Of a DNA stretch of 39,438 nucleotides, positions 19,758-25,297 are shown one piece after another. Both the position numbers and the translations under genes were made by a program. Source of the DNA: Steroidobacteraceae bacterium (lineage in GTDB: Bacteria; Pseudomonadota; Gammaproteobacteria; Steroidobacterales; Steroidobacteraceae); assembly GCA_019634915.1 (NCBI GenBank), contig JAHCAN010000027.1, positions 1-39,438 on the forward strand, read 5' to 3'. Numbering within the stretch: position 1 is the stretch's first letter; each line of letters opens with the position of its first letter. The notes beneath the pieces are model-generated. The model had not been told where the DNA came from, ran no database searches, and saw only the letters and a list, made by a program, of their open reading frames with translations.

Positions 19758-22205
<2,448 letters not shown>

Positions 22206-22400: not shown

Positions 22401-23495
22401 ATGCCCCGATACGATGACGCTGCCCTTGGCGCAGCGCTGGCCAGTTTCGTCGACCCCAGTGCGGACGAGACCCTCGAAGCGCTCGGCGCGGTCGAGCAGG
22501 CGACCGTCGACGACGGGCGCGCCCGCGTGCGCCTGCGGTTCGGCTTTCCGGTCGGCGGCTATGCTCACGAGCTGCAGCCGCTGCTCGCCGCGCATCTCGC
22601 CGCCCAGGGCATCGCGCTGCCGCTCGAACTCGAACTCGTCGCCGACATCGCCGCGCATGCCGTGCAACGCCAGCTGAAGCCGCTGGCGACCGTCCACAAC
22701 GTGATCGCGGTCGCCTCCGGCAAGGGCGGCGTCGGCAAGTCGACCGTCGCCGCGAACCTCGCGCTCGCGTGGGCGGCGCAGGGTGCGCGGGTCGGTATCC
22801 TCGATGCCGACATCTACGGCCCGAGCCAGCCGCTGATGCTCGGGCTCGCCGGCGAGCGTCCCGAGATCGGCGCCGGCAAGCGCATCCATGCGCTGTCCGC
22901 GCATGGCATCGTCGCGATGTCGATCGGCTTCCTGATCGACGCCGACCAGCCCATGGTCTGGCGCGGGCCGATGGTGACCCAGGCGCTGACCCAGCTGCTG
23001 AACGACACGCTGTGGGGCCAGCTCGATTACCTGGTCGTCGACATGCCGCCCGGCACCGGCGACATCCAGCTGACGCTCGCGCAGCGCGTGCCGGTGGCCG
23101 GCGCGATCATCGTCACGACGCCGCAGCACATTGCGGTGGCCGACGCGCGCAAGGGACTGCGGATGTTCGAGAAGGTGTCGGTGCCGGTGCTCGGCATCAT
23201 CGAGAACATGAGCCTGCACGTCTGTTCGAACTGCGGTCACGCGGAGCCGATCTTCGGCGCGGGCGGCGGCGACGAGATGGCGCGCGAATACGGCGTCGCG
23301 CTGCTCGGGCGCCTGCCGCTCGATGCGCGGATCCGCGAGGAGGCCGACGGCGGGCGGCCGAGCGTCGTCGCCGCGCCCGACTCGCCGCGCGCGGCGGCGT
23401 ATTTCACGATGGCGCGGCGCACCGCCGCCGCGCTCGCGCGCCGCACGCGCCATGTGAGCGGCGCATTCCCGGACATCATCGTCGAGGACACCTGA
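22401..23495 (+). CDS. apbC: Mrp/ApbC iron-sulfur cluster carrier ATPase
   Basis: The 364 residues contain an N-terminal MIP18/DUF59-like domain (about 10-90) and a P-loop NTPase domain. The deviant Walker A is [10 protein letters not shown], followed by LDADIYGPS, the [10 protein letters not shown] Walker B region and the cluster-binding CxxC in HVCSNCGH. ApbC/Mrp binds and transfers [4Fe-4S] clusters. ATG 22401 begins the typical N-terminus and is placed about 30 bases after a promoter; the frame is open further upstream but without conserved sequence. It is two bases upstream of dcd; mrp-dcd adjacency is known in pseudomonads. Confidence 0.95.
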
Positions 23496-23497
23496 AC

Positions 23498-25297
23498 GTG
23501 AGCATCAAGGCCGACAAGTGGATCCGCCGCATGGCCCGCGAGCACGGCATGATCGAGCCGTTCGAGCCCGGGCAGGTGCGCGCCGTCGACGGCCGCAGGA
23601 TCGTCTCCTACGGCACCTCGAGCTACGGCTACGACGTGCGCTGCTCGAACGAGTTCAAGGTGTTCACCAACATCAACTCGACGATCGTCGACCCGAAGGC
23701 CTTCGACGAGAAGAGCTTCGTCGACATGCAGTCCGACGTCTGCATCATCCCGCCGAATTCGTTCGCGCTCGCGCGCACCGTCGAATACTTCCGCATTCCG
23801 CGCAGCACGCTGGTGGTATGTCTCGGCAAGTGCGTCACGGGCGATACGCGCGTCGTGGACGCCGAGACCGGCGCATGGCTGCCCATTACGGAGATGCGAT
23901 GGGGACGGCAAACGCTGGGCCTCGACGGATGGTCGACGCGACCGGTACGCGTCAGTGAGCTGTTGTCGCAGGGTCGCAAGCCGGTATTCGAGCTGCGCAC
24001 CCGTGCGGGTCTCAGAATATGCGCCACCGCCAATCATCCGTTCAGGCAGCTGCGGGGCTGGACCTGCCTCGGCGATCTGAGGGCCGGTGACCGGATCGCG
24101 GTGGCGCGCCAGGTACCGGTATTCGGGCGAAACGCGCTGCCGGAATGGGAATCCGCGCTGCTCGGCCTGATGATCTCGGAAGGTCAGTGCCACACGCCCG
24201 GTCACAGCCCAGTGTTCACCAGCGAGGACCCGGCGCTGGTTGCGCTCTTGCGTCAGTCGGTCGCCGCGAGCGGATTCGGCGAAGTGACATGGAATGGGCA
24301 TCTCGGCTACCGCATCGTGAACCATGCCGGGCGCGGCGGCTTGCCCGTGAAGAATCGTGCATCTGCGTGGCTGGATTCGATGGGCTTGTGCGTCAAGGGT
24401 AGTGACAAGTTCGTTCCGGGTGCGGTCTTTACGTCGGACGAGGCATCGACCCGGAAGTTCCTGCAGGCGCTCTTCGCAGGCGACGGCGGCCTGTATCGCA
24501 CGGGTGAGAGCTATTTTCTCGAGTACTATTCCAAGTCGCGCCGACTCATAGAGGATGTGCGTCATCTGTTGCTGCGCTTCGGCATCTTCTCGCTGATGCG
24601 GCAGAAGACCACCGCCATCGGGACACAGGCGCATTCGCTGCAGATCACCGACCGCGAGCAGATCCTGAGATTCGCCGATCGGATCGGCTTCGTGCCCGGC
24701 TCGATCAAGCAGCAGCGACTCGATCGCGAGATCGTGCCGCCGCTGCGGGCATCGGGCGAGCGGTTGCGCAGCAATTTCGACACGTTGCCGCGGGAAGCCT
24801 GGCCGCTGCTGCTCGCTGCTGCACGCGGCGCGGGTACGAGCGCCAATCGGCTTGGCGTGCACGCACAGAACAATCAGTCCGTACCTCTCAAGGCGGCGCG
24901 TGCGGTCGCAGTGGGCGCCGGTGCGGATGATCTTCACTCACTGATCGATGGGCCGGTCTGGGACGTTGTCCAATCGATCACGCCTGCCGGCGAAGAAGAG
25001 GTGTTCGATATCTCCGTGCCAGGCACGCACTCGTTCGTGGCGAATGACATGTACGTTCATAATTCGACTTATGCACGTTGCGGCATCATCGTGAACGTAA
25101 CGCCCCTCGAGCCGGAATGGGAAGGGCACGTGACGCTCGAGTTCTCGAACACGACGCCGCTGCCCGCGAAGATCTACGCCAACGAGGGCGTCGCGCAGAT
25201 GCTGTTCTTCGAGTCGGACGAGGTCTGCGAGACGTCGTACAAGGATCGCGGCGGCAAGTACCAGGGCCAGCGCGGCGTCACGTTGCCGAAGACCTAG
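23498..25297 (+). CDS. dcd: dCTP deaminase precursor interrupted by an intein
   Basis: Dcd deaminates dCTP to dUTP, feeding dTTP synthesis. The unbroken 599-residue frame (GTG 23498) consists of an N-extein of 111 residues (23498-23830), an intein of 411 residues (23831-25063) and a C-extein of 77 residues (25064-25297). Joining the exteins restores GKSTYARCG and a 188-residue protein, the usual length of the pseudomonad/Burkholderia type. In the spliced enzyme S112, R116 and E137 align with the E. coli active-site S111, R115 and E138. No Dcd is expected to be active before splicing, because the insertion splits the active-site loop. It is the second gene of an mrp-dcd operon. There are no frameshifts or stops, so both extein and intein look functional. 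Confidence 0.97.
23831..25063 (+). mobile_element. Dcd intein with LAGLIDADG homing endonuclease
   Basis: This 411-residue protein intron runs from C1 to N411. Block A is CVTGDTRV (1-8), block B TANH (T66, N68, H69), block [16 protein letters not shown] (391-405) and block G YVHN before Ser+1, with penultimate H410. All class-1 splicing residues are therefore present. A DOD-type endonuclease lies between: motif 1 LLGLMISEG (110-118, Glu at the catalytic acid position), a KFVPGAVF segment (193-200), motif 2 LQALFAGDG (211-219, D218) and block [13 protein letters not shown] to LLLRFGI (232-252). Residues about 300-365 form an extra region of unknown role. Base composition is less GC-rich than the host and includes rare AGA and ATA codons (24009-24014). 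Splicing should be autocatalytic in the cytoplasm. Confidence 0.96.

Follow-up and report, generated by a model that had tools for sequence, protein, structure and literature searches.

Why does the dCTP deaminase gene (dcd) of a Steroidobacteraceae bacterium encode 599 amino acids? The gene lies in a 39,438-nucleotide stretch of DNA (the window; contig JAHCAN010000027.1 of assembly GCA_019634915.1), as a single frame with a GTG start at 23498-25297 on the forward strand. A first-pass annotation had proposed that this frame contains a 411-residue class 1 intein with a LAGLIDADG endonuclease, and that taking the intein out would leave an ordinary 188-residue Dcd. These proposals held up. We think it very likely that a full-length class 1 intein, probably still mobile, sits in the chromosomal dcd of this gammaproteobacterium, and that its insertion site (site a) forms an active-site hot spot together with a second site (site b).

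The insert occupies residues 112-522 and splits Dcd after residue 111. It has the features of a class 1 intein: a Cys1 nucleophile (residue 112), a block B TxxH (T66-A-N68-H69, residues 177-180), a penultimate His and terminal Asn (H410-N411), and Ser at the +1 position (residues 521-523 are H-N/S). The Pfam models DCD (E = 2.1e-28), LAGLIDADG_3 (1.4e-16), and Intein_splicing (2.2e-15) all match above the gathering score, so the Hint-domain profile search that had been suggested as a check gave a clear result. From NCBIfam, intein_Cterm is above its cut-off (26 versus 15.6) and intein_Nterm is slightly below it (23.4 versus 24.5). The top NCBIfam match over the insert is the model for an intein-bearing DnaB (PRK07773, 212 bits, residues 112-524), which is below that model's whole-protein cut-off. 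An acidic residue is present in both LAGLIDADG motifs of the intein (LLGLMISEG, Glu117; LFAGDG, Asp218); Pfam's LAGLIDADG_3 spans only the second (residues 319-397). The predicted fold is confident (AlphaFold, 15 site-a inteins; pLDDT 85.7, pTM 0.86) and resembles solved inteins: in Foldseek, the best solved match is the endonuclease-bearing TliVMA intein (7qss, E = 6.3e-21), followed by its variant 7qsu and PI-PfuI (1dq3), and the splicing domains of DnaB and RecA rank lower. The profiles, the predicted fold, and the empty sites of congeners (below) all support the identification as an intein with a LAGLIDADG endonuclease.

The host protein is a dCTP deaminase, with a score of 141.6 for TIGR02274 (dCTP_deam; cut-off 92.8) and the conserved GKSTYAR motif. 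Once residues 112-522 are removed, 188 amino acids remain, and the two flanks match the stretches of 4dhk before and after its residue 115 (E = 7.8e-102); the available text of PMC6293099 gives 4dhk as Dcd from Burkholderia thailandensis. The +1 residue, Ser523, aligns with chain residue 111 of 2j4h, which we take to be Dcd from E. coli. The catalytic residues of the E. coli enzyme are Ser111, Arg115, and Glu138. Because the intein is inserted directly before the residue that aligns with Ser111, the precursor should be inactive until it is spliced. The features are listed in Table 1.

Table 1. Features of the dcd locus and the gene upstream (positions in the window).
Feature	Positions	Strand	Evidence
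Mrp/ApbC-like P-loop ATPase, upstream (5' end not set)	22413..23495	+	Pfam ParA/NUBPL 1.3e-99
Dcd N-extein, residues 1-111	23498..23830	+	4dhk 4-115 match; Pfam DCD; GTG start
Class 1 intein of 411 aa at Dcd site a	23831..25063	+	Profiles, splicing blocks, empty in four congeners
N-terminal splicing half, intein residues 1-97 (approximate boundary)	23831..24121	+	NpuDnaB and Mtu RecA intein sequence matches; model strands
LAGLIDADG endonuclease region, intein residues 98-372 (approximate boundary)	24122..24946	+	Pfam LAGLIDADG_3; both acidic residues
C-terminal splicing half, intein residues 373-411, ends VHN (approximate boundary)	24947..25063	+	TIGR01443 intein_Cterm
Dcd C-extein, residues 523-599	25064..25294	+	2j4h, query 523 = chain 111; 4dhk second stretch 523-599
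STYAR, 5-residue segment between sites a and b (b empty here)	25064..25078	+	Site comparison

We propose the following mechanism. The 599-residue precursor would be translated, Cys1 would begin the N-S acyl shift, the catalytic Ser would act as the +1 nucleophile, and Asn411 would cyclize, which would release the 188-residue Dcd. The endonuclease would cut intein-free alleles of dcd across the codons for GK/STYAR, and repair would copy the intein into the cut allele. Sites a and b, which are 15 bp apart, would form a hot spot at the active site for inteins of different endonuclease types, either alone or together.

The first-pass annotation did not count dcd among the commonly reported hosts, but Dcd inteins had already been published, from haloarchaea (2014), a cyanophage (2018), and two bacteria. 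In the available text of PMC6293099 (2018), the Dcd intein of cyanophage vB_AphaS-CL131 (MG209611 gp069) is shown to excise itself in E. coli. Like the window's intein, it has a dCTP deaminase host and an endonuclease domain, but the endonuclease is of the HNH type and we place the CL131 intein (locus L203) at site b (STYAR/C), five residues downstream. The window's intein is not of the CL131 type, given its GK/STYAR position and its LAGLIDADG rather than HNH endonuclease, and the window's genome has no match to the site-b intein. From what is available of PMC4071816 (2014), the halobacterial dCTP deaminase intein allele 'dtd' also has a Dcd host in a cellular genome, but an archaeal one. PMC6293099 also cites MacGregor et al. 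2013 for Dcd inteins in a Proteobacterium and a Chloroflexus, which share a bacterial Dcd host with ours. So Dcd is already known as an intein host, and the window's intein is a further Dcd intein. What the window adds is a LAGLIDADG intein at the active site of Dcd, at a different site from CL131's. By sequence, the closest splicing domains are those of DnaB inteins (PRK07773; NpuDnaB, 4o1r, E = 1e-18; Ssp DnaB, 1mi8), but these are in another host gene and at another site, and two DnaB inteins from the window's own family are 31% and 32% identical to the window's intein (loci L138 and L139).

We searched for related insertions in 217 genomes from the window's family. An insertion at the identical codon boundary is present in 15 of these genomes (including the window's), and the Dcd context was verified in all 15, so the homologous insertions that the first-pass annotation had advised looking for do exist and chance is excluded. 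Where both exteins are in one frame (123 loci), the gap between them is 0 at 97 loci, so that Dcd is continuous there and the site is empty. Site b lies between the Arg and Cys of STYAR/CG, five residues (15 bp) downstream of site a, and is filled in 32 of the 217 genomes (all 32 confirmed in Dcd). Overall, 44 genomes have a Dcd intein at a, b, or both, and 173 have no match to either one (as judged by matches to the intein queries, with the dcd genes looked at in part). Of the 32 site-b inteins in this family, six have 375-376 residues and the others have 190-307 (about 239 in G182). Site-b inteins show traces of an HNH domain: HNH_3 is above its cut-off in CL131's intein, is below it in those of L085 and L007, and gives no match in the site-b intein of L116. 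Between the splicing domains of the site-a and site-b inteins, the similarity is remote (hhalign 91%, 87 columns).

Beyond the family, we searched wider groups. In a sample of 396 genomes drawn evenly from the order, 52 genomes had matches at E ≤ 1e-25, all within the window's family, and some of these were via other hosts such as DnaB. In 369 genomes from the class, we found site-b Dcd inteins in three other genomes from three other families, and no site-a Dcd intein outside the window's family at E ≤ 1e-45. Across 400 Chloroflexota (E ≤ 1e-40), only G442 has a site-a Dcd intein, and nine others have site b filled (in each of the nine, one frame holds both the intein and the Dcd N-extein), so the site-b type is the commoner Dcd intein in that sample. 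The start of a site-a intein is also present in L004 (Anaerolineae), where it is cut by the contig end. Two other candidates were rejected: G773 (Chloroflexota) matches residues 1-267 of the query, but the site is empty in the retrieved sequence, and L328 (from G1155) is 36% identical to the site-a intein but has no Dcd extein.

We did not place any viral or plasmid donor at site a in three scans of viral contigs and in tblastn against phages and plasmids. One of these searches gave 17 loci, which were examined for a Dcd extein, and none has one. Another gave 109 loci, of which 80 were kept (best segments 23-36% identical), and a further one gave unannotated phage hits. Separately, the viral contig IMGVR_UViG_3300044941_000264 (L210) contains a 317-residue site-b Dcd intein. 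It is possible that this is a phage carrier besides CL131.

The first-pass annotation took chromosomal inteins to be uncommon in gammaproteobacteria, but in the window's family inteins are not rare: the intein query finds matches in 68 of the 217 genomes (E ≤ 1e-6), a count that takes in Dcd and other genes and some matches over a short stretch only. Beyond Dcd, many DnaB-length frames in the family contain related LAGLIDADG inteins (L138 and L139 were checked), as does at least one error-prone DNA polymerase (L127 was checked).

Is the intein mobile? Seven genomes from the window's genus are informative. Site a is filled in three of them, namely the window's (G000), G001, and G002, and is empty in the other four (G003-G006). 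Between G000 and G001, the synonymous divergence (dS) of the intein is 0.39, as compared to 0.31-0.50 for seven other tracts. The intein of G002 is far more divergent: its dS is 1.18 to G000 (bootstrap range 0.94-1.61), where the seven other tracts have 0.29-0.65, and 1.42 to G001 (1.10-2.05), where the other tracts of pairs involving G002 have 0.28-0.65. So, the G002 copy of the intein has diverged out of step with its host region. (The seven tracts are the HEAT/kinase gene, mrp with frames trimmed to the gene start, the two Dcd exteins, purM, and two genes that are, presumably, DUF3108-like and CDP-alcohol phosphotransferase-like.) The inteins of these three congeners also have a lower GC3 than their Dcd exteins (0.75-0.76 versus 0.87-0.95).

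The codon for the +1 Ser also distinguishes filled from empty alleles. It is TCG in all three filled congeners and AGY in all four empty ones (Fisher p = 0.029), and among 13 invariant Ser codons it is the only one to split between TCN in filled alleles and AGY in empty alleles; the codon for Ser103 is of the other class in one empty congener. Since two changes separate TCN from AGY, this split looks like either DNA that was carried along during homing or a target that the endonuclease requires; in the latter case, the endonuclease could accept TCN alleles only. Across loci, the +1 position has TCN at 15 of 16 filled sites and 45 of 92 empty sites, with kinship ignored. (Duplicate flanks were entered once. 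The 21 loci without the motif site were skipped: L126-L140, which are 15 loci in other genes; L004, because of the contig end; and L017, L024, L074, L161, and L162, which match Dcd but where the motif was missed.) We found no co-conversion tract beyond the +1 codon: for the 47-base bin that spans the insertion point, identity is 82% among filled alleles and 88% among empty ones.

It is unlikely that the intein can splice but no longer moves, with vertical inheritance in the genus and loss from four of the seven species. Such a history would fit the intein and Mrp trees, which both pair G000 with G001 (the latter tree with untrimmed Mrp frames), as well as the dS of that pair, which is within the range of the neighboring tracts, and the identity of flanking sequences, which is not raised among filled alleles. 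But it does not account for the high dS of the G002 copy or for the different class of +1 Ser codon in filled and empty alleles, and precise loss in four lineages would be costlier. Also, neither catalytic acidic residue has been lost from the window's intein, and the endonuclease region has a low omega (0.076-0.115), which supports the identification of the LAGLIDADG endonuclease as well.

Another idea is that the intein was recruited as a regulator, so that conditional splicing would gate Dcd activity and hence the balance of dCTP and dTTP. We doubt this, as the intein seems dispensable given the 173 family genomes without a match to either Dcd intein, even though the insertion is at the counterpart of the catalytic Ser, a single copy of Dcd was found, and mycobacterial DnaB inteins are reported to splice conditionally (PMC6195587). 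It is most improbable that the insert is decaying or unspliceable, which would leave an open frame and a dead enzyme: the class 1 blocks are all intact, the exteins are close to Dcd proteins with empty sites, and omega for the splicing domain is low. We prefer a spliced and probably still mobile intein, and the congeners suggest that it moves between species.

Across the family, movement seems to be less general. In the intein tree, genera g1, g7, and g23 each form one group and g10 and g18 do not; with single groups for three of the five genera, much of the spread looks to be vertical or within a genus. (Three of the six outgroup rows were checked, which gave DnaB for L138 and L139 and an error-prone DNA polymerase for L127.) One or both catalytic acidic residues are lost in five of the 15 site-a inteins, and a sixth (L124, from G164) retains the pair and is shortened by a deletion of 40 residues. 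From their sequences, then, the site-a inteins appear to be a mix of intact and decaying copies, and mobility is apparently not universal.

The surprising and unusual part is the stacked arrangement in relatives. In three family genomes both sites are filled (L115 from G106, L116 from G158, and L122 from G180), with only STYAR between the two inteins, and these five residues include those aligned with Ser111 and Arg115. With 15 genomes having a, 32 having b, and 3 having both out of 217, co-occurrence is about at chance level (Fisher p = 0.47, kinship ignored), and mutual exclusion of a and b is unsupported. A Thermoflexales MAG (Chloroflexota) has a triplet: L003:4001-7945 of JAUQXC010000528.1 is one 1315-residue frame with a 186-residue Dcd and inteins of 412 (a), 376 (b), and 341 (c) residues. 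Intein c is 12 residues after b and has Cys at +1. In this frame, the Pfam intein-splicing model matches in two places, and the matches of Hint models to c are below their cut-off. The site-a intein of L003 is outside the window family's group in the intein tree (97/96). In an AlphaFold model of a twin precursor, both inteins are mostly confident and nearly all of the Dcd parts have pLDDT under 50; we set aside an unfolded precursor as the reading of this, since a poor alignment could give the same result.

Among the open-access papers listed in our searches, none was seen to describe inteins with a spacing of five residues, or three inteins in one Dcd. Two homing inteins in one gene, each affecting the homing of the other, are described for haloarchaeal MCM-a and MCM-d in the available text of PMC10643990; unlike these, sites a and b of Dcd flank a single five-residue catalytic motif. 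With sites a, b, and c within 17 residues of the mature enzyme and with differing endonuclease types, we are inclined to view the catalytic loop of Dcd as a stacked homing hot spot. If so, the stacked genes must release STYAR with correct junctions at both ends, an intein in one site should interrupt the DNA target of its neighbor, and the twins and the triplet would be natural tests of ordered splicing of multiple inteins and of homing interference within a small enzyme. The stacked relatives make it testable if adjacent inteins splice independently across a pentapeptide middle extein, and if one intein immunizes the gene against the other.

We also considered how much the host depends on splicing. 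In the first-pass annotation, the dUTP supply for dTTP would depend on it, a claim that we put more cautiously. A single Dcd match turned up in each of G000 (79% complete) and G002 (100% complete), and Dut is present in all five genomes tested. In E. coli, dcd mutants are viable, and Dcd could be bypassed by way of dUDP from ribonucleotide reductase. An active Dcd probably requires splicing, but growth may not.

The GTG start of dcd is 2 bases past the stop of the Mrp/ApbC-like gene, and this spacing suggests that the two genes are co-transcribed. ARAGORN calls a 102-base tRNA-Glu(CTC) within the Mrp/ApbC-like frame (22761-22862 in the window), which is probably a false positive. Further upstream, on the reverse strand (19758-22205), is a gene for an 815-residue protein with HEAT repeats and a protein kinase domain; it adjoins a gene that we take to encode a PilT-like ATPase.
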